From: Leifsonia virtsii
Lineage (GTDB): Bacteria > Actinomycetota > Actinomycetes > Actinomycetales > Microbacteriaceae
Assembly: GCF_030433675.1 (NCBI RefSeq)
Contig: NZ_JAROCB010000002.1
Location: 868,001 to 932,000 of the forward strand
Direction: 5' to 3'
Length of the DNA: 64,000 bases
Within the stretch, counting starts at the first letter, position 1. The number at the start of each line of letters is the position of its first letter. Positions 15,113 through 26,380 of the stretch are shown piece by piece. A model generated the notes under the pieces. That model was not told where the DNA came from and made no database searches. It saw nothing but the letters and a program-made list of their open reading frames with translations. A program made the position numbers and the translations under genes.

Positions 15113-15235
15113 TCACCGTAACGTGCCGAGGCTGTGAGCCGCATCCAACCTCGTTCGGGTGTCTTGTTGTCCGCCCGGCCTGGTGAGAACATCTCACTAC
15201 GGGTTCGCGGCAGGTTCCGCGGGCGCGGCAGCATC

Positions 15236-16645
15236 ATGGGGACCAGGCTCAGGCGACACCGGCTTGCGACGCGATCCGCGGGACCGCGCCGGATGGGTCC
15301 TGCGTGGGCCGCGCTGCTCCTGGTCGCGGGGACGCTGTTGGCGGCGCCGCAGGCCGCGACCGCCGACGAGTGCCCGGCGGTGTGTGCGACGCCCGCGCCG
15401 ACGGAGGGGACGGCGACGCCCACGCCCGAGCCGACGCCGTCCGAGGATCCGACGCCGACGCCGGATCCGACCCCGACCCCGACCCCGACACCGACGCCGG
15501 ATCCGACGCCCACTCCGACTCCCACGCCGACACCGACTCCAACGCCGACTCCGACCGGGACCTCGACTCCCGCCCCCTCTCCATCGCAGCCCGCGCCCGA
15601 CCCCGCGGCCGCGTCGCCGAGCGACCAGATCACCCTCTCGGCGCCCGAGCTGCCGGTGTTCCAGACCCTCGACCCGGCCGAGCTGGAGCAGACGGTGCAG
15701 CTGGCGAGCGAGCTCGCGGCGGCGCAGCAGCAGCTCGCCGACGCCACCACCGCCTCCGAGGACGCCCAGCGCGAGCACGACAGGGCCCAGGCCTCGGCGG
15801 ACGCGCTGACCAAGCAGGCGGAGGCCGCGCAGAAGCGGTCGGCCGAGGCGGCGGCGTTCGTCACCGCCCTGATCCGCACCTCCGGCACCCGGCTGCTCAC
15901 CCAGGACCCGATCACCGCGGCGCTGCAGGGCCCGGGCGACCTGCTGACCAAGCTCGGGGCGGCCGACCGGCTGTCGGCGCTGTCGCGCGACCGCGACGCG
16001 GCGATCCGGGAGGCCGCGCAAGCGAAGAAGACCGCGGAGACGCTCGCCGGGCAGGCGCAGGCCGCCGTGGACGCGGCCTCGGCCGTCGACGTCGAGAGCA
16101 GTCTCCAGGCCGTCACCGCCGCCCAGTCCCGGGTGGACGCGGCGTCGGCGGCGCTCGCCGCGGCGCCCTCGGTGATGCAGGCGGGATCGGGGTGGCAGGT
16201 GCTCACCTCGAACCCGGCACTGGTCGCCGACGGCTGGGCGCTCCCGGTGCACGGACCGCTGACCGACGTGTTCGGGCCGCGACCGTCCCGTCCGCTCGGC
16301 ACCGACCCGTTCCATCCCGGCGACGACATCGGCGCAGCCTGCGGCACGACCATCTACGCCGCCGCGGCGGGCACCGTCGTCCGCGCCGGGCCGTTCAGCG
16401 GGTACGGCAACTTCATCCTGATCGACCACGGCGGCGGGGTCGAGACCGCGTACGGCCACATCCGCGACGGCGGCATCGGCGTCACGGTGGGCCAGCAGGT
16501 CGCGGCGGGCCAGCCCATCGCGCAGGTCGGGTCCACCGGTCTCTCGACGGGCTGCCACCTCCACTTCGAGGTGCGCGTCAACGGACTGCAGATCGACCCG
16601 CAGCCGTTCCTCGCGGCGCGCGGGGTCGTCGTCGGCACCCGCTGA
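15236..16645 (+). CDS. Secreted M23-family peptidoglycan peptidase with coiled coil
   Basis: 469 residues. A signal peptide (about 1-43, ending AAPQAATADE) is followed by a long Thr-Pro repeat (about 65-125), an Ala/Gln-rich coiled coil (about 155-310) resembling EnvC/RipA-type regulators, and a C-terminal LytM/M23 domain. That domain keeps the zinc ligands HPGDDIG (His361, Asp365) and CHLHFEV. It should cut peptide cross-links of the wall outside the cell, probably in growth or division. The Thr-Pro segment is encoded by in-frame 6-bp tandem repeats that could vary in length. Confidence 0.88.
   Translation: MGTRLRRHRLATRSAGPRRMGPAWAALLLVAGTLLAAPQAATADECPAVCATPAPTEGTATPTPEPTPSEDPTPTPDPTPTPTPTPTPDPTPTPTPTPTPTPTPTPTGTSTPAPSPSQPAPDPAAASPSDQITLSAPELPVFQTLDPAELEQTVQLASELAAAQQQLADATTASEDAQREHDRAQASADALTKQAEAAQKRSAEAAAFVTALIRTSGTRLLTQDPITAALQGPGDLLTKLGAADRLSALSRDRDAAIREAAQAKKTAETLAGQAQAAVDAASAVDVESSLQAVTAAQSRVDAASAALAAAPSVMQAGSGWQVLTSNPALVADGWALPVHGPLTDVFGPRPSRPLGTDPFHPGDDIGAACGTTIYAAAAGTVVRAGPFSGYGNFILIDHGGGVETAYGHIRDGGIGVTVGQQVAAGQPIAQVGSTGLSTGCHLHFEVRVNGLQIDPQPFLAARGVVVGTR
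15452..15556 (+). repeat. 6-bp tandem repeat coding Thr-Pro in the M23 peptidase
   Basis: Degenerate units of the form (CCSACN)n encode a run of PT/PD dipeptides. Slippage by whole 6-bp units would keep frame, so only the length of the wall-spanning linker would change. Confidence 0.6.
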
Positions 16646-18111: not shown

Positions 18112-18783
18112 GTGACTCGTCTCCTCCCTCGAGCCCGCGGTGTCCTCGCGCGGGCGGCCGTATGCGCGGCAGCCGTCGTGCTCGCACTGCTCGCCGCCGT
18201 CGCGCCCGTGTCGGCGGCGGCCGCGGCACCGGCGCCGGTGTGCAGTTCGTCTGCCGACGTCTCCTCCTGCGACGCCGACGGCGACACCGTGCCGGACACG
18301 GTCGAGCGGGTCGTCTGCGGTTCGGCGACCTGTGCGACGGGCCGTGAGGACCGCGACCGGGACGGAATCCCGGACTGGGTGGAGGTCGTCGCCTGCGGCT
18401 CCGTGACGTGCGCGTCCCCGACTCGCGACTCCGTCGGAGACGCGATCCCGGACTACGCCCGGCAGATCGTGTGCGGTTCGGCCACATGTTGGACCGGCAA
18501 CGCCGACGCCAACGAGAACGGCGTGCCGAAGTGGGCCTCCGTCGTCATCTGCGGCACCGTGTCGTGCGCCACCGGGCACGAGGACTACGACGCCGACGGC
18601 GTCTCGGACGCGATCCAGCTGGCGGCGTGCGTCCTGGGTCGTGGCGATCTGGCCAAGACCGGCGCGAGCATCGCGATCGGCGTGATCGCCGCCGTCGCGG
18701 GGGCCCTCATCGTCACCGGCATGGCGCTCGCGCGCAAGCGGCGCCTGTTCTCCGCCGCCCTCGACGCCGGCGCCGCCGCCTGA
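18112..18783 (+). CDS. Cell-wall-anchored protein with Cys/Asp repeats and LAKTG sortase signal
   Basis: 223 residues, GTG start. A signal peptide (about 1-38) is followed by four and a half repeats of about 26 residues (53-173). Each has a calcium-binding-like DxDxDGxPDxVE stretch, as in thrombospondin type 3 repeats, and a CGSxTCxTG block with two cysteines. The C-terminus is a sorting signal: LAKTG (180-184), a hydrophobic helix, and RKRR. LAxTG is the motif used by class E sortases in high-GC Gram-positives. Its stop overlaps the start of the Rhs gene (TGATG), so both are made together. Role inferred: surface partner of the Rhs protein. Confidence 0.8.
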   Translation: MTRLLPRARGVLARAAVCAAAVVLALLAAVAPVSAAAAAPAPVCSSSADVSSCDADGDTVPDTVERVVCGSATCATGREDRDRDGIPDWVEVVACGSVTCASPTRDSVGDAIPDYARQIVCGSATCWTGNADANENGVPKWASVVICGTVSCATGHEDYDADGVSDAIQLAACVLGRGDLAKTGASIAIGVIAAVAGALIVTGMALARKRRLFSAALDAGAAA

Positions 18784-21700
18784 TGCGCCGGTCATGGACG
18801 CGGTCGGCGGTCACCTCCCTCGCGCTGGGAGCCCTCGTCGCGACGGGCACGGTGACACCCGCCGAGGCGGCGCCGTGGGAGATCGCGCGCCGCACGTCCG
18901 CCGCGACCCTCGCCGAGGTGCGTGCCGCCGCGGCGGACCGCGAGGTGCGCGAGAAGGAGGAGACGACCGCCCCTCCGCCGGTGACCGAGGGCACCGTCCG
19001 CCCTGGCGCGACGTCGAAGGTCGCGGCCGAGAGCCTCGGCGTGACCGCGACCTTCTCGGGGCACACCGTCGACGACCAGCTGACCGTCACCGTGGGCGAA
19101 GCGCCCAGGACGGCCGAGGTCTCCGCGCGGGCTGAGCAGCCGGGCGGCGGCGTCCCGGTCTCCGATCCCGTCGAGATCACCGCCGTGGACGGCGCGGGCA
19201 AGGAGCGCACCTCGTTCCCGGCGAAGCGCGTCGACACCCGCGGCGGGGGCGGCAAGGGGCCCGTCGTGTCGGATGTCGTACCCGGGCTCGCCCTCGCGCT
19301 GAAGCCCGACTCGAAGGCGGTGAAGGCCGCCGACGTCGAGCTCGCGACGCTCCGCATCTACACGCGCGAAGGGGCGGGGGACCCCTGGGTGCAGCTGCCG
19401 TCCTACTACGACACGAAGACCGGGCTGGTGAAGGGCGAGTCGACGCACCTGTCGCAGTTCGTGGTGATCGGCACGAAGTTCGTCCCGCCTCCCGGACCGG
19501 TCGTGGTCCTCGACCCCGACAACGACGACGGTCGCGTCACGACTCCGGCCCCGCCGGTATCGGAGCTCGGCTACAACATCCGACTCGCACAGCTCGTCCG
19601 CGGGATCCTGCAGCAAGACTGCCGGGCTTCGGTGCAACTCACCCGTGAGGACCCGGCCGTCCCGTTCGTCAGTCGCACGACACGCGCTGGGATCGCGGCG
19701 AGCTTCAACCCCGTGGCGACGGTCGGGCTCGCGTTCAACACGCTCGACGGCGAGTCGTGGGGCGGTGGGGATGCGTCGCTCGGCGGCTCGCAGGTCTACT
19801 CGCGCGGCGGGGGCGCCGACGACGCGCTGTCGAACGCTCTCGTCGGCAACCTGCCCACGTACACGACACGGCCGGCCAGGAACCTGGGCAACAACGGCAC
19901 CTTCCCGGGCAGCGAGTTCGACGGGGTTCCCGGCGCCCTGACCCACCTCGAGGCGCTCTTCCTCGACAACAACCTCGATCGGGCGATCATCGACGACCCG
20001 GCAGGCTTCCAGCACATCGCCAACGGCGTTCTGGTCGGCCTCGGCACCTGGCTCGAGACGCAGGGCTTCGACTGCACGGATCCCGTGACCGGCGGCTGGC
20101 CCGCTCCGCCGTCGGCCGCCGACATCGCCCGCTGGCGTCTGCTCGGCCTGCAGAACTACCTGACCTACGGCGGGGAGCCGTTCTCGTTCTCCACCGGCAA
20201 CCTGGTGGAGCAGGAGAAGCTCTTCTCCCTTCCCGGTCTCGGCGGCTCGACCACCGACCTGACGCTGTTCTACAACTCGCAGGACGGCCGGCTCTCCCGC
20301 GTGGGCGCCGGCTGGTCGTTCGGGCTCGGCGCCCGCGCGCAACGCTTCGACGACGGAGGCGTCATGGTCGTACGCGGCGACGGCGCCAGCTTCGTCTTCA
20401 ACCCGGACGGCGCCGGCGGCTACCGCACAGAGCCCGGCCTGCACCAGACGCTGACCGAGCAGCCCGGCGGCCGGCTCCTGCTGACGGATGTCTCCGGGGA
20501 GTCCTGGGTCTTCGACGCAGGCGACATCGAGGGCATCGGCGAGCTCATCTCGCACACGGATGAGAACGGCAGCACGACCGCGCTGAGCTACGGCCCGGCG
20601 GATCCCGACGTGCAGCAGTTCGTCCCGCTCACGTCCATCACCGTGCCCGGTGGCCAGGTCATCCAGGTGCAATCGGACGCCGAGGGGCGCGTGACCGGGT
20701 TCACCCGGCCTGGCGGCGATCGCTGGAGCCTCGAGTACGACGCCGCGGGCGACCTGCGCACCATCACGCTGCCCGACGGGCGCACGCATCGGTTCGCCTA
20801 CGACGGGTCCCACCAGCTGCTCACCGCGACGGATGCGACCGGAACGCTGTACCTGAGGAACGAGTACGACGGCGCGGGGCGCATCGTGAAGCAGTGGGAC
20901 GCGGCCGGCAAGCTCCGCACCCTCGACTATTCGAAGGCCGGTCAGACCACTTACACCGACACACTCGGCCGGAAGAGCGTGTACTTCTACGACTCGGCGT
21001 TCCGGGTCACGAAGGTGCAGCATCCCGACGGCACGACGGCGTCGTTCGCGTTCGACGGCCAGAACAACGTCACGACCTCGACCGACGAGAACGCACACAC
21101 CACGCGGTACGCCTACGACAGTTCCGGCAACATCCTGAGCGAGACCACGCCCTCCGGCCAGGTGATCAAGTACACCTACACACCGACCGGGCGGCTCGCG
21201 ACGAAGACGGACGCGGGCGGGGCGAAGGGCGCGGCCCGCACCTGGGCATACGACTACGATGCCGCCGGCCGTCTGACCACGGTGCATCAGCCCGACGGGA
21301 CTGCACTTACGCGCCGCTACGACGCCGCCGGGAACCTGGTCGCGTCCGTCCAGCCGTCGGGTGCGACCACCACCTACGGGCACGATGCTGCGGGCAACAT
21401 CACGACCGTCACCGACGCGACCGGTGCCGTGACCCGGTACGCCTACGATGCCGCGGGACGGATCACGTCCGTCACCGATGCGAACGGCCGCACGACCGGA
21501 TACTCCTGGGACAGCGGCGATCGGGTCACCGCCGTGACCGACCCGGCGGGCGGAGTCACGGTCTACGGCTACGAGCCGAACGACCACGTCTCGTCGGTGA
21601 CCGACCCTGCCGGCGGGCGGAGCGCATTCGTATGGGACGCACTCTTCCACCTGACGCAGACGACAAATCCGGTCGGCGGCGTCACCGCCTACACGTACGA

Positions 21701-24700
21701 CGGTGAGGACTCACTCATCGGCGCGAAGAACCCGCTCGGCGACACGACGAATTACCGCACCGACGGCCAGGACCGTGTGACGGAGGTGACCGACCCGAAC
21801 GGCGGCAACTGGAAGCGCGAGTACGACGGCGTCGGCAACGTGACACGTGTCACGTCGCCGACCGGCGCATCCACCAGGTACGCCTACAACGCGTCCGGCA
21901 ACCTGCTGTCGCAGACGGACCCGACCGGCGCCGTCACCCGGTACGCGTACGACGGAGTCGGTCGCCCGGTGGCGGTGACGGACGCGGACGGCGTGACCAC
22001 CCGCTTCGCCTACGACGTGATGGACCGCGTCACCCGGGTGACCGACGGCGCGGGAAAGCACACCGACTACGCCTACGACGCCGACGGGAACGTCGTCACG
22101 GTCACCGACCGTAAGGGCGACGCCACGGTGTACGCGTACGACGCCGCCGGCCGGCTGCGCTCGTCGACGACCCCGACCGGGTCGACCACCTCCTACTCGT
22201 ACGACTCCGTCGGAAACGTCGTCGCGACGACCGACCCGCTCGGCCGCTCCACCACGATCGCGTACACGCCGACCGATCAGGTCGCCTCGGTCACGGACGC
22301 GGCCGGGAACACGACCTCCTACGGCTACGACGGCGCCGGACGCCGCACCTCCGTGACGGATGCGAACGGCCACACCACGCGTTACGCCTACGACCCGGCC
22401 GGCCGCCAGACCGGCCTGACCGACCCGACGGGAGCGACGACCGCCTACGGGTATGACGTAGGCGGCAGGCAGACCTCTCTCACCGCTCCGGGCGGGAGCA
22501 TCACCCGGTACGAGTACGACCCTGCGGGTCAGCTGACGCAGGTCGTCGAAGGGTACAAGAAGGGCGCGAAGCCGGGTCCCGCCGTCAACGTCTCGACCCG
22601 TTACGCGTACGACCCCGATGGCAACCTGCTGACGGTCTCGGACCCGAACGGGCACACCACCCGCTACACCGTGGACGCTGCCGGCCGCACCACGAGCGAG
22701 ACGAACCCGGTCGGCAACACCAGTCGCAGGACCTACACGGCCGCCGGCCGGGAGTCGTCCGTCGTCACGGGCACGGGTGCGACGACGAGCTTCCGGTACG
22801 ACAAGCGCGGCGACCTGGTCCGGCAGGATGCCGCAGGCGCGATCGCGACCTTCGAGTACGACAGCGAGCAGAACCTCATCGCCGTCACCGACCCGGGCGG
22901 GGTGACCGGGTTCCAGTACGACGCCGACGGCCGGATCACCGTCCAGCTCGACCAGCAGGGCGGTCGGCTGAAGACGGCGTACGACAAGGCGGGACAGACG
23001 GCGAGTGTCACCCTCCCGACCGGTAAGAAGCTGTCGTACACCTACGACCGCGCCGGCCGGGCGACCTCGCAGTCGTCGCCGTGGGGCGACCTGGCCTACG
23101 CGTGGGATGCCGTCGGCAACCTCACCCGCCTGGACCGCTCGACGGGCGTCGGCTCGGCGTACGCCTACGACGCCGCGGACCGCGTCACGGCGATCACGCA
23201 CACGACCCCGCAGCCGTCCGCTCCTGCCGTCCCTGTGGCGACACCGACGCCGGCGCCGTATGCGAAGGGCTCCGCCGCAGCCACGGCATGCACCGGAGTC
23301 TCCGGCTACCTGGGGGCTCGTGCGGCATCTACGACCGCAGCCCCGCTGTGCGAGAAGGCGGCGGAGTACGTGAAAGTCCGCACCCTCCCGGCCGAGGGCA
23401 ACCCCGTCCCGGATGGAGGCGTGCTCTCGTACCGCTACGCGTACGACGCCGACGGCAACGTCACCTCCGCGACCCGGAGGATCGCGTCCACGCCGGACAA
23501 GCTGGGTTCGTCCGCGCTGCCGACGACCCCTGCTCCCGCCACCTCCGTCACGACATCGACGACGGACTACGCCTACGACCCGCTGGGCCGCCTTGCGTCA
23601 TCGAAGACCACGGCGGGGGAAAAGAACACTTACGGCTATGACGCCGCCGGGAACCGGACGAGCTGGTCCCGGTCGGGCGCGAAGGACGGCGACTTCTCGC
23701 AGCGTGCGTCGTTCAACGACGCCAACCAGCTGACCGGGTCGGAGACCAGCGGTCGTGGTCGTGGCGTGAGCGCTGGCACCGCATCGTATTCGTACGACGC
23801 CGCGGGCAACCGGGTGAATCAGACGGTGGCGGGTGTGTCGACGCGGTTCGCGTACAACCCGGCGGGTCAGACAACGGAGGTCGCGCGTGAGGGCCGGACG
23901 ACCTCGTACGGCTACGACGGCCTGGGCCGGAACACGTCCGTGACCGACCAGTCCCGGTACGGGACTTCGACCACCCGTACCGTCTTCGACGGCCTCCAGC
24001 CCGCCCAGCAGTCCGCGCGGTCCACCGGCACGACCACGCTGATCCGGGACGCGCTGGGCAGCCTGGCCGAGCATGTCACCCAGGACGGCACCGCCACCTG
24101 GGACCTGCTCGACCGCCTCGGCTCGACGGTCGCCGGCGCGGCCGGCGGTTCGATCACGCAGTTGTCCTCCTACGAGGACTGGGGCGCCCAGCGTTTCGAG
24201 ACGGGCGCCTGGTCGGCACCCGAGAACTTCACCGGCGAGTCGACCGACCCGACCGAGGGCCTCAACCACTACTACGCCCGCACCTACGACCCGGCAGCGG
24301 CCGTGTGGACGAGTGCGGACCCGTGGCGCGGCCTCCTGACCCAGCCCCAGTCGCTGCACCGCTACGCGTACGTCGAGAACGACCCGGCGACGTCGTTCGA
24401 CGAACTCGGCTTCAAGGCGAAGCAGCAGCGACTGAAGCTGCCACCGCCGCTGCCGAAGTGCGAACCGCTGCGTCAGAAGTGCGGAGGCTCGCCGTTGCCG
24501 ATTGCTGGGACGGGTCCCACCAACATGTGCATCAGCGACCCCCGCCCACCGTGCTCATCGCAATACCTACCGCCGAGCCCACAGCCGTCGAGAGGTCCCG
24601 GATCGCCAGAAAGGCCGAAGGCGACTGGGCCGAACAGCAAGAGCGACGTCACGGACAGCCACGGATGCAAGCCAGGCACACTTTGGCAAAGCAACGCCTA

Positions 24701-25079
24701 TACGAACGGGAAGTGCGAGTCGGTCGAGGTCCTGAAGCAACAGGCTGCAAATGTGGGCAAGTTCTTCGACTTGTTGGGTTGGATCGGCGCGGCCGCTGGA
24801 TTGGCTTCCCTCATCCCGGGCCTTCAGTGGCTCGCTCCCATCGCCCTAGTGGCTGGTGCAGCCAGCACAATTTACAACTGCGTTGTAGGCGGAAAGAAGG
24901 TCGGGAGTTGCATCGTCGGCATCGTAGGTACTGTCATTCCCGGTGCAGGGAAGCTGTTGGGCGCTGCGCTAAGAGGGAAAGTCGAGGCGTGGATCTCAGA
25001 CGCGCTGTCTCAGGGGTTTGGTGCCCTGGGGATCGCAGGAGACGGATTTGGGATTGCGCAATTGGATGGTTTCAAGTGA
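18783..25079 (+). CDS. Giant secreted Rhs/YD-repeat protein with variable C-terminal tip
   Basis: 2098 residues. It has a signal peptide (about 1-30, TVTPAEAAP), an N-terminal region without recognised domain (30-455), and a DUF6531-like opening of the Rhs shell (about 460-520, FSFSTGNLVEQEKLF). Several dozen YD repeats follow (about 590-1800, RYAYDAAGR pattern). The Rhs core end is NHYYARTYDPAAAVWTSADP to NDPATSFDELG (about 1835-1875). After DELG comes a 220-residue tip with a Pro/Cys-rich linker and a hydrophobic Gly/Ala-rich segment (about 1993-2063). In the WapA/Rhs class the shell encloses and delivers a toxic tip. Lower GC in the tip suggests exchange. The start is fixed by TGATG coupling. 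Confidence 0.9.
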   Translation: MRRSWTRSAVTSLALGALVATGTVTPAEAAPWEIARRTSAATLAEVRAAAADREVREKEETTAPPPVTEGTVRPGATSKVAAESLGVTATFSGHTVDDQLTVTVGEAPRTAEVSARAEQPGGGVPVSDPVEITAVDGAGKERTSFPAKRVDTRGGGGKGPVVSDVVPGLALALKPDSKAVKAADVELATLRIYTREGAGDPWVQLPSYYDTKTGLVKGESTHLSQFVVIGTKFVPPPGPVVVLDPDNDDGRVTTPAPPVSELGYNIRLAQLVRGILQQDCRASVQLTREDPAVPFVSRTTRAGIAASFNPVATVGLAFNTLDGESWGGGDASLGGSQVYSRGGGADDALSNALVGNLPTYTTRPARNLGNNGTFPGSEFDGVPGALTHLEALFLDNNLDRAIIDDPAGFQHIANGVLVGLGTWLETQGFDCTDPVTGGWPAPPSAADIARWRLLGLQNYLTYGGEPFSFSTGNLVEQEKLFSLPGLGGSTTDLTLFYNSQDGRLSRVGAGWSFGLGARAQRFDDGGVMVVRGDGASFVFNPDGAGGYRTEPGLHQTLTEQPGGRLLLTDVSGESWVFDAGDIEGIGELISHTDENGSTTALSYGPADPDVQQFVPLTSITVPGGQVIQVQSDAEGRVTGFTRPGGDRWSLEYDAAGDLRTITLPDGRTHRFAYDGSHQLLTATDATGTLYLRNEYDGAGRIVKQWDAAGKLRTLDYSKAGQTTYTDTLGRKSVYFYDSAFRVTKVQHPDGTTASFAFDGQNNVTTSTDENAHTTRYAYDSSGNILSETTPSGQVIKYTYTPTGRLATKTDAGGAKGAARTWAYDYDAAGRLTTVHQPDGTALTRRYDAAGNLVASVQPSGATTTYGHDAAGNITTVTDATGAVTRYAYDAAGRITSVTDANGRTTGYSWDSGDRVTAVTDPAGGVTVYGYEPNDHVSSVTDPAGGRSAFVWDALFHLTQTTNPVGGVTAYTYDGEDSLIGAKNPLGDTTNYRTDGQDRVTEVTDPNGGNWKREYDGVGNVTRVTSPTGASTRYAYNASGNLLSQTDPTGAVTRYAYDGVGRPVAVTDADGVTTRFAYDVMDRVTRVTDGAGKHTDYAYDADGNVVTVTDRKGDATVYAYDAAGRLRSSTTPTGSTTSYSYDSVGNVVATTDPLGRSTTIAYTPTDQVASVTDAAGNTTSYGYDGAGRRTSVTDANGHTTRYAYDPAGRQTGLTDPTGATTAYGYDVGGRQTSLTAPGGSITRYEYDPAGQLTQVVEGYKKGAKPGPAVNVSTRYAYDPDGNLLTVSDPNGHTTRYTVDAAGRTTSETNPVGNTSRRTYTAAGRESSVVTGTGATTSFRYDKRGDLVRQDAAGAIATFEYDSEQNLIAVTDPGGVTGFQYDADGRITVQLDQQGGRLKTAYDKAGQTASVTLPTGKKLSYTYDRAGRATSQSSPWGDLAYAWDAVGNLTRLDRSTGVGSAYAYDAADRVTAITHTTPQPSAPAVPVATPTPAPYAKGSAAATACTGVSGYLGARAASTTAAPLCEKAAEYVKVRTLPAEGNPVPDGGVLSYRYAYDADGNVTSATRRIASTPDKLGSSALPTTPAPATSVTTSTTDYAYDPLGRLASSKTTAGEKNTYGYDAAGNRTSWSRSGAKDGDFSQRASFNDANQLTGSETSGRGRGVSAGTASYSYDAAGNRVNQTVAGVSTRFAYNPAGQTTEVAREGRTTSYGYDGLGRNTSVTDQSRYGTSTTRTVFDGLQPAQQSARSTGTTTLIRDALGSLAEHVTQDGTATWDLLDRLGSTVAGAAGGSITQLSSYEDWGAQRFETGAWSAPENFTGESTDPTEGLNHYYARTYDPAAAVWTSADPWRGLLTQPQSLHRYAYVENDPATSFDELGFKAKQQRLKLPPPLPKCEPLRQKCGGSPLPIAGTGPTNMCISDPRPPCSSQYLPPSPQPSRGPGSPERPKATGPNSKSDVTDSHGCKPGTLWQSNAYTNGKCESVEVLKQQAANVGKFFDLLGWIGAAAGLASLIPGLQWLAPIALVAGAASTIYNCVVGGKKVGSCIVGIVGTVIPGAGKLLGAALRGKVEAWISDALSQGFGALGIAGDGFGIAQLDGFK

Positions 25080-25516
25080 ACGCATATGACGAAATCGAGC
25101 AGCACGACTTGTTGCCCGGCCCGAGTGCCAACAAATGGGCGGAGGTTGCCATCGTCGGCGGAGTCGTCTGGATCGTAGGAACGGTCGGGTCGCTGACTTG
25201 TGCGCTTGCCCTGGTTCGCGACACGGGAGTGCTCGATCCCACCACCTTGAGTTTCATGGGTCTCTTCGTTGGTGGCCTCGCGGCACTCGCGTTCTCGACC
25301 TGGATGATGAAGGCCAAGGAGAAGAAGGAACTAAGCGCGGGCTACACGACGATGGCCCAGGGACACTACGAGGTTGAGCGACGTCATTCGCCAACGGGAG
25401 CGATCATGCGGCGTGCAGGCCAGCCAGCCTTGACCCAGGCGCAGTGGAAAGCTGCGATGGCCGCCGTTCGAGCTTACGAGCAGCGGTCAGGACGCGGCGC
25501 CAGGAAGCAGCGGTAA
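25076..25516 (+). CDS. Two-helix membrane protein, candidate immunity protein
   Basis: 146 residues, GTG start overlapping the Rhs stop (GTGA). Two hydrophobic helices (VAIVGGVVWIVGTVGSLTCALAL and LSFMGLFVGGLAALAFSTWMM) are followed by a basic C-terminal part (KAKEKKEL to GRGARKQR). Position and coupling directly after an Rhs tip are the standard place for an immunity gene. A membrane immunity protein fits a tip that looks membrane-active. No homologue is recognised, so the role is inference. Base composition is lower in GC than in the flanking housekeeping genes. Confidence 0.7.
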   Translation: MNAYDEIEQHDLLPGPSANKWAEVAIVGGVVWIVGTVGSLTCALALVRDTGVLDPTTLSFMGLFVGGLAALAFSTWMMKAKEKKELSAGYTTMAQGHYEVERRHSPTGAIMRRAGQPALTQAQWKAAMAAVRAYEQRSGRGARKQR

Positions 25517-25591: not shown

Positions 25592-25717
25592 CAAACCACA
25601 AACCGGGGCACGGTGCTGAGACCGATCGTCCGCGACGCAATTGACCCGTTCGGTGCAGTCATCGGCGGCCTCGGCGGTTGGAAGAGTGCTGGCGGCAACT
25701 GGCCAGCGGTTAGGTGA
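25592..25717 (+). pseudogene. Remnant of a second C-terminal toxin tail
   Basis: An open frame without a convincing start codon gives 41 residues ending PFGAVIGGLGGWKSAGGNWP and then AVR-stop. Its stop overlaps the GTG of the next gene by GTGA, the same junction as between the Rhs tip and its immunity gene. It therefore looks like the 3' end of an older tip left behind after replacement, still attached to its immunity gene. Confidence 0.45.
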
Positions 25718-25917
25718 GCATGGTGAGTGAAACGACCCCTCCTTACGCGGACAGTATGCCTTTGGTGATCTTGGCCATCACAGTGCCGCTAGCGCTTGTG
25801 GTCGTCGTGGCCATTGTCCATGCTGCGTTGACGAATACCGGTGGGACCAGAAGGCGGCCGCCGACGCCTACGCCCTGCTCATCGCCGCAGCTGCTGGCTC
25901 CGCATGACGACCGCTGA
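25714..25917 (+). CDS. Small single-helix membrane protein, possible orphan immunity gene
   Basis: 67 residues from GTG 25714; ATG 25720 is the alternative. A short polar N-terminus (VSETTPPYADS) is followed by one strong membrane helix (PLVILAITVPLALVVVVAIV) and a Pro/Thr-rich tail. It overlaps the preceding tail remnant by 4 bp and the following gene by 14 bp, so all three appear coupled. No homologue is recognised. In an Rhs locus, displaced cassettes commonly leave immunity genes behind, which is the reason for the call. Confidence 0.5.
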   Translation: MSMVSETTPPYADSMPLVILAITVPLALVVVVAIVHAALTNTGGTRRRPPTPTPCSSPQLLAPHDDR

Positions 25918-26380
25918 CCTCGCCTCCACGATCCTCTGGAACAGGAGCGCTCTCAACGGTGCTGGGTGGATGAGTTGCATCCTCATACTCGAGGGCGGGG
26001 TTCTCGAGCTTCGTGGCGACAGCGGTACGGTGTTCCGTTCGCCGGTTTCGGCGGTCACTGCTCGCATCACGCCGCCGGGTGACCTGGAGATCAGGATCGC
26101 GGGCGAGCCGGCTCGCTACCGTCTCACGGTGTACAGCAACTGGACGACCCCGCAGCCGACGCCGCGACAGCTCCTGGTGCTCCGCGAAGCGCAGCTGCGG
26201 ACGGGTACTTCGCAGCGCGCACAGGCGATCATTCCCGCATGGCGGCGGGCGCTGGAGGAGTCCGGGGCACACGTCGTGGGCCGCCGCGGTCATGGCCCGT
26301 TCTACGTCATCGCTGCATGCGTCGTTGTGCCGGCGGTCACGGTCGTGCTCCTGACCTTCGCCACCCTCACCGCCCCGTGA
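25904..26380 (+). CDS. Membrane-tethered protein with PH-like N-terminal domain
   Basis: 158 residues, ATG start, overlapping the upstream gene by 14 bp. Residues about 20-90 alternate strands (SCILILEGGVLELRGDSGTV, VFRSPVSAVTARI, GDLEIRIAGEPARYRLTVY) as in bacterial PH-like domains. A helical stretch follows (QLLVLREAQLRTG), and one C-terminal membrane helix (FYVIAACVVVPAVTVVLLTF) closes the protein. It is convergent with paaG and ends 14 bp inside no gene, overlapping the paaG 3' end at 26367-26380. Function unknown; it may belong to the remnant toxin-immunity array. Confidence 0.6.
   Translation: MTTADLASTILWNRSALNGAGWMSCILILEGGVLELRGDSGTVFRSPVSAVTARITPPGDLEIRIAGEPARYRLTVYSNWTTPQPTPRQLLVLREAQLRTGTSQRAQAIIPAWRRALEESGAHVVGRRGHGPFYVIAACVVVPAVTVVLLTFATLTAP

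Follow-up and report, generated by a model that had tools for sequence, protein, structure and literature searches.

A 64,000-nucleotide stretch of the Leifsonia virtsii genome (NCBI RefSeq assembly GCF_030433675.1, contig NZ_JAROCB010000002.1, positions 868,001 to 932,000 of the forward strand; hereafter the window) encodes a very large Rhs protein flanked by two small genes: a Cys/Asp-repeat protein, predicted to be attached to the cell wall by a sortase, and a membrane protein. We find that the repeat protein is very probably a dedicated partner of the Rhs protein. The three genes, numbered from the first position of the window, are:

18112-18783, + strand: Cys/Asp-repeat protein (the predicted anchored partner), GTG start, 223 amino acids
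18783-25079, + strand: putative polymorphic Rhs toxin, with a signal peptide, 2098 amino acids; RHS_repeat E 9e-174, Rhs_assc_core E 2e-13
25076-25516, + strand: third gene, candidate cognate immunity gene encoding a membrane protein, GTG start, 146 amino acids, two hydrophobic segments; covaries with the type of toxin tip

The genes and their overlaps lie exactly where a reading of the sequence alone (the sequence-only reading) had placed them. The stop codon of the partner gene overlaps the Rhs start in TGATG (18781-18785), and the Rhs stop overlaps the start of the third gene in GTGA (25076-25079). These overlaps imply a single operon, whose translation is probably coupled, which is less than the fixed ratio of the three products that this reading had claimed. 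The same reading had closed the locus at 25516; this boundary has to be moved, since the system runs on with an orphan tip remnant and an orphan immunity gene.

Coupled gene overlaps are common in high-GC actinobacteria, and this general feature favours an explanation in which the partner and the Rhs protein are neighbours by descent only, without a joint function. We assessed it using 26 distinct loci (the window, L013-L015, L018-L028, L043-L051, L088 and L089), 15 of them from the genus Leifsonia and 11 from other Microbacteriaceae. Each of the 15 Leifsonia-genus loci has the TGATG overlap, joining the stop codon to the Rhs ATG. In the 11 others a start codon lies at -3, +5 or +6, counted from the final base of the stop codon (both -3 and +6 in L015). 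Because the overlap is common to all 15 and the starts are nearby in the 11 others, it is more than a chance arrangement. The partner gene lies directly upstream of the Rhs gene, on the same strand, in 26/26 loci, the conservation in relatives on which the sequence-only reading had staked its proposal. When the upstream stretches (1.8 to 4 kb) were compared at the DNA and protein levels, they fell into 21 unrelated contexts, and the pair therefore moves or persists as a unit.

The distribution of the two genes across genomes agrees. In a family sample of 299 genomes, strong matches to the partner (E 1e-43 or lower) were found in 12, and strong matches to the Rhs N-terminus in the identical 12; weaker hits, to the partner in four further genomes (E 1e-4 to 9e-4) and to Rhs in one (7e-4), were dropped. 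Both queries were run against 26 Leifsonia-genus genomes, of which 11 have both genes and 15 have neither. Two more were searched with Rhs only: G335 has two Rhs loci with a partner upstream of each, and G334 has no Rhs. Two full Rhs loci occur in four genomes (G000, G002, G229 and G335), and each of these has two partners. With the pair intact in 21 contexts and its presence and absence matching in both the family and the genus samples, descent alone is barely credible, and we rejected a chance neighbourhood. Beyond the family, profile searches for the partner (E up to 1e-6, scoring few first-look candidates per genome) returned only the genome of origin among 396 genomes of the phylum, and that genome plus G515, from another family, among 248 genomes of the order. 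In G515 the partner gene lies next to the end of its contig, and its stop codon is directly followed by what looks like the start of a signal peptide; the search for Rhs in this genome was empty, which shows little since the assembly is 75% complete and in 510 contigs.

The Rhs frames are sometimes split. This is the case in L028 (G000, contig 6), the second partner-Rhs pair of its genome, where the frame is interrupted after residue 271, and likewise in L022 and L049; such frames were taken as they stand.

The partner has the architecture of a sortase substrate. It consists of a signal peptide, Cys/Asp repeats (residues ~44-176), an LAKTG motif (180-184), a transmembrane helix and a basic tail, and LAxTG is found in 25 of the 26 partners. 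Class E sortases use LAXTG motifs (PMC5148588), and the genome encodes one (239 bits, for an NCBIfam cut-off of 160). All the features of a class E substrate are thus present, from the signal peptide to the sortase itself, and the repeat protein is predicted to be an LAXTG substrate of this enzyme. Both sortase hits of the genome are on contig C4, and the window is on C3. The genome also encodes a class C sortase, which adjoins an LPFTG protein (L096).

The repeats themselves comprise four CG[ST]xxC units and Asp-rich repeats with DxDxDGxPD-like loops. Their likeness to thrombospondin type 3 repeats is a resemblance only: the Pfam family TSP_3 gave E 0.16 and 12.2 bits, against a cut-off of 25. 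They have weak NCBIfam matches to the thrombospondin-type-3 cohesion protein MtsD (3/4 members, best E 3e-4) and to CglD (1/4, E 0.0016). A Foldseek comparison of the partner model (predicted local distance difference test, pLDDT, of 60) found no chain, and a sequence search of the PDB with the partner gave no hit.

The loops and the weak matches to MtsD and CglD are what one would expect if the repeat protein were a calcium-dependent adhesin that joins the producer to target (or sibling) cells and never touches the Rhs protein, which would then be held by its own amidase-like domain. Adhesion would benefit contact-dependent killing, and an inactive amidase domain could conceivably bind the wall by itself. 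Such an adhesin would hardly need, however, to be coupled to Rhs at every examined site, nor to be present in a second copy in the four genomes with two Rhs loci, and its short repeat region (~130 amino acids) would give it poor reach. We regard this explanation as unlikely, if worth keeping in view.

The Rhs protein matches RHS_repeat, DUF6531 and Rhs_assc_core, and thus has both the RHS/YD repeats and the core of the family. The core, the tip and two orphan pieces downstream of the operon are placed as follows:

24171-24410, + strand: Rhs_assc core of Rhs (residues 1797-1876), with an Asp pair like the C-terminal aspartyl self-cleavage motif here and just after
24657-25076, + strand: variable toxin tip of Rhs (residues 1959-2098), three hydrophobic segments; GC 0.586 versus 0.705 in the core
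25592-25717, + strand: orphan toxin tip remnant, 41 codons and a stop; 71% identity over 28 amino acids to the L021 orphan tip, E 1e-10
25907-26380, + strand: orphan immunity gene; 50% identity over 153 amino acids to the L021 gene that immediately follows Rhs

The tips that follow the conserved core vary between loci. The L044 tip is an HNH nuclease (E 1e-8) and that of L050 is Ntox24 (E 5e-16), and hydrophobic types occur elsewhere; ten tips were scanned, and the remaining eight gave no convincing Pfam family. Homologues of the window tip are found in L013, L025 and L027 (46-57% identity) and, with weaker similarity, in L020, L021 and L023. It matched no Pfam or NCBIfam family, and a PDB sequence search with it returned chance-level hits only.

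The gene that follows Rhs changes with the tip. A profile homolog of the third gene lies no more than 200 bases from the Rhs stop codon in 6/7 loci with this tip type and in 0/16 of the others (Fisher p 7e-5), four of the counted loci having been used to build the profiles. A locus was scored for this tip type if the membrane part of the tip profile was matched by its main tip; L019, L022 and L089, which match the profile only over the first 33-48 positions, were counted among the others, and L014, L015 and L018 were not counted, as their sequence records stop at this point. L021 has this tip type but a different immunity gene. By this covariation the third gene is a candidate for the cognate immunity gene.

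Downstream of the main genes, L019, L021, L043, L045, L050 and other loci carry orphan pieces of Rhs or of tips, and the remnant in the window matches the end of the L021 orphan tip. Between this remnant and the orphan immunity gene there is a short open reading frame (25715-25918) that has a single hydrophobic segment and is possibly a further remnant.

Since the tips are polymorphic, the GC content drops in the tip, the third gene covaries with it and orphan cassettes follow, the locus almost certainly encodes a polymorphic Rhs toxin, as judged from these sequence comparisons. The opposing explanation is that the Rhs protein is a teneurin-like adhesin or a surface structure and no toxin. It can draw on the adjacent adhesion-type partner and on a window tip that matches no toxin family in Pfam or NCBIfam, but it leaves the HNH and Ntox24 tips of sister loci, the GC drop, the covarying immunity gene and the orphan cassettes without an explanation. 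We thus rejected Rhs as a mere adhesin, which we consider highly improbable. The three hydrophobic segments of the window tip, together with the two of its putative immunity protein, make a membrane target likely, and the tip is with fair probability a membrane-active toxin.

Two further domains are predicted at the N-terminus of the Rhs protein by a structural model and fold comparison, which support them with medium confidence:

18972-19484, + strand: ZU5/GAIN-like domain of Rhs (residues ~64-234), with an invariant His222-Leu223-Ser224
19488-20072, + strand: Amidase_3-like domain of Rhs (residues ~236-430), lacking both zinc-binding His, predicted to be inactive

Active Amidase_3 enzymes have the zinc ligands His-Glu-His and a catalytic Glu. 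Here, both His are lost in all 25 aligned loci while Glu261 and Glu390 are kept, and we rejected an active cell-wall amidase for this reason. Many loci have a His a little further along the first zinc loop; since the window has Arg at this position, and other loci Tyr or Trp, it was not counted as a ligand. Part of the amidase-like domain is also carried by two divergent Rhs fragments, L094 and L095, of genome G014.

The His-Leu-Ser near the end of the first domain is present in 26/26 loci and in two of the three distant Rhs proteins that have the domain. HL followed by T or S is the cleavage triad of GAIN domains, as given in the relevant passages of PMC11697300. Self-cleavage of the ZU5 type is thus predicted by the model and the motif, and we consider it likely. 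At the site resembling the canonical N-terminal cut of Rhs proteins (residues 462-474, window ~20166-20204), the acidic residue before Pro is Glu in 19/25 loci, the search pattern having matched in 25 of 26 (L028 was unmatched). The C-terminal Asp-pair pattern was matched in 20/26 loci; L028 has Glu in first position and, among the six unmatched loci, L018 ends at a contig end. A Pfam scan of the whole Rhs protein (E up to 1) found neither LysM nor DNRLRE, the wall-binding domains of WapA.

Upstream of the partner gene lie two other genes, one maltokinase-like and one M23-like; at 15134-16645 the window encodes an M23 peptidase-like protein containing an extended Pro/Thr run (PTPDPTP).

Together, these elements fit a self-contained module in which a sortase-anchored partner displays a self-cleaving, polymorphic Rhs toxin on the wall, a reading that we hold tentatively, at close to an even chance. 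Both proteins would be exported by Sec, after which the class E sortase would couple the LAKTG protein to the wall. The ZU5/GAIN-like domain would cut itself at His222-Leu223, before Ser224, and the small N-terminal fragment would then clasp the rest (the inactive amidase domain, the Rhs shell and the enclosed tip) non-covalently. By gripping this fragment, the anchored partner would display the shell and leave it removable at contact, with the inactive amidase domain serving as a peptidoglycan-binding module. The C-terminal Asp pair would release the tip, here a predicted membrane-active toxin that may kill the contacted cell, and the adjacent membrane protein would shield siblings. It is plausible that the partner keeps the Rhs shell attached to the wall; that it acts specifically as the tether of the Rhs protein is possible, with the balance tipped somewhat against it. 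One can push this further and imagine a spring-loaded two-gene surface weapon, in which a calcium-stabilised wall post grips the N-terminal half of a GAIN-like cleaved joint and the force of contact pulls off the shell and toxin, as adhesion receptors shed their halves. On this view, the invariant HL-S triad and the frequent loss of the Asp at the usual N-terminal site of Rhs proteins suggest that a GAIN-like cut took the place of the usual one. We consider this elaboration unlikely.

Several observations weigh against the displayed-module reading. On the side of the partner, that of L050 lacks LAxTG and has a transmembrane helix only. Genome G014 has one partner-Rhs pair plus the fragments L094 and L095, which lie at contig ends with their upstream genes out of view, so that a one-to-one pairing is less secure in this genome. 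The main tip of L088 resembles the window type (in BLAST without composition correction) and has no adjacent immunity gene of this family, which would bring the count of tips with this immunity gene to 6/8. On the side of the Rhs N-terminus, the AlphaFold2 model was built from four sequences and has a mean pLDDT of 61.3 and a predicted template modelling score of 0.43, and Foldseek by itself puts the ZU5 chains at no better than E 6e-3 to 3e-2. The Pfam scan (E up to 1) gave no ZU5, GAIN or GPS family, and Amidase_3 was below the gathering score in the window and listed for 2/4 members. The CxH motif given for ZU5 autopeptidases in passages of PMC3482391 has its Cys replaced here by Ser, Leu or Ile. 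Correlations between partner and Rhs distances do not seem to single out the Rhs domain that the partner would touch: given the core, the partial r over 24 loci is 0.19 for the ZU5 part (reached by 91/2000 permutations) and 0.09 for the amidase part (383/2000), and over the 14 Leifsonia-genus loci it is -0.12 (1672/2000) and 0.24 (53/2000), respectively. Finally, four distant Rhs proteins of other families in the order (L090-L093) have the amidase-like domain and no such partner upstream. Since the partner is also rare beyond the family, it was probably an addition made in or near the Microbacteriaceae.

These four Rhs proteins bear as well on an explanation that makes the repeat protein a helper in export or wall passage (an extracellular chaperone) for the very large Rhs protein, with no tethering role, in the manner of the SecF-like protein and SrtB for WapA of Streptococcus suis. 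There, in the relevant passages of PMC12704120, secF-like and srtB genes lie upstream of wapA and their loss impairs killing, and the gene order seen here, with a translationally coupled helper coming first, would fit. The distant Rhs proteins nevertheless manage without a partner, and a covalent LAxTG attachment to the wall suits display better than transient help, so that a helper role seems to us unlikely, slightly more so than the adhesin. If the partner indeed displays the toxin, as the displayed-module reading has it, we infer that it binds the Rhs protein, which would be released on contact.

How giant Rhs toxins are held and released by contact on Gram-positive surfaces is poorly understood, and the partner, if the reading is true, could be how these bacteria keep a surface toxin ready. 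The WapA protein of Bacillus subtilis is, like the Leifsonia Rhs, a large Rhs/YD protein with a signal peptide, a C-terminal toxin and an immunity gene; its N-terminal part is different. We know of no coupled repeat protein for it. Its tip is a nuclease, described as a tRNase toxin in the abstract of PMC5566331, whereas the Leifsonia tip is predicted to act on membranes. Delivery of a membrane-acting tip by an Rhs protein is shared, on this prediction, with Tse5 of Pseudomonas aeruginosa, whose tip is pore-forming and which uses Type VI secretion (PMC10684867). With the GAIN domain of adhesion G protein-coupled receptors, the Rhs N-terminus shares a fold match, at the level of the model, and the HL-T/S triad; in the receptors the cleaved halves stay attached (passages of PMC11697300), whereas here the protein is a secreted bacterial toxin and the cleavage is predicted.

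The sequence-only reading had taken the Rhs protein for a contact-dependent toxin, which is supported by the polymorphic tips, the covariation of tip and immunity gene and the orphan cassettes, and had seen in the locus an undescribed toxin-delivery system, which stands only in part. Sec-exported RHS toxins with N-terminal ZU5 domains of proposed releasing role were described by Zhang 2012 (PMC3482391), and those in the relevant passages share with the present system the N-terminal ZU5-superfamily domain, the central RHS repeats, the variable C-terminal toxin and the immunity genes. Their ZU5 domains are mostly found together with SpvB and beta-propeller domains. These passages mention no inactive amidase domain, and neither "sortase" nor "LPXTG" appears in the first 300,000 of the 357,715 characters of the text. 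WapA with a cognate sortase has likewise been described (passages of PMC12704120). In the open-licence PMC literature we found no description of an Rhs toxin that has a sortase-anchored protein as its neighbour, nor of an inactive Amidase_3 domain between a ZU5 domain and an Rhs shell. The type of Rhs toxin, the ZU5 domains in RHS toxins and the pore-forming Rhs tips are thus known, and what appears to be new is the dedicated partner, a predicted sortase substrate.

The closest comparison is with the S. suis system, in which WapA-CT is Sec-exported, autocleaved and associated with SrtB and a SecF-like protein, as given in passages of PMC12704120. Both are Gram-positive Sec-exported Rhs toxins with autocleavage (predicted in Leifsonia) and a link to a sortase and to wall display. 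WapA of S. suis has LysM and DNRLRE domains at its N-terminus, and LysM is absent from the Leifsonia Rhs in the Pfam scan. No adjacent srtB or secF-like gene of the S. suis type was found in the window, where no dedicated secF-like search was made. The neighbour of WapA is a class B sortase, whereas here the neighbour is a predicted sortase substrate and the sortases are on another contig. A sortase substrate dedicated to the toxin, and linked to its gene across numerous genomic settings, would be a second link between sortases and Rhs toxins, besides that of WapA with its own sortase.

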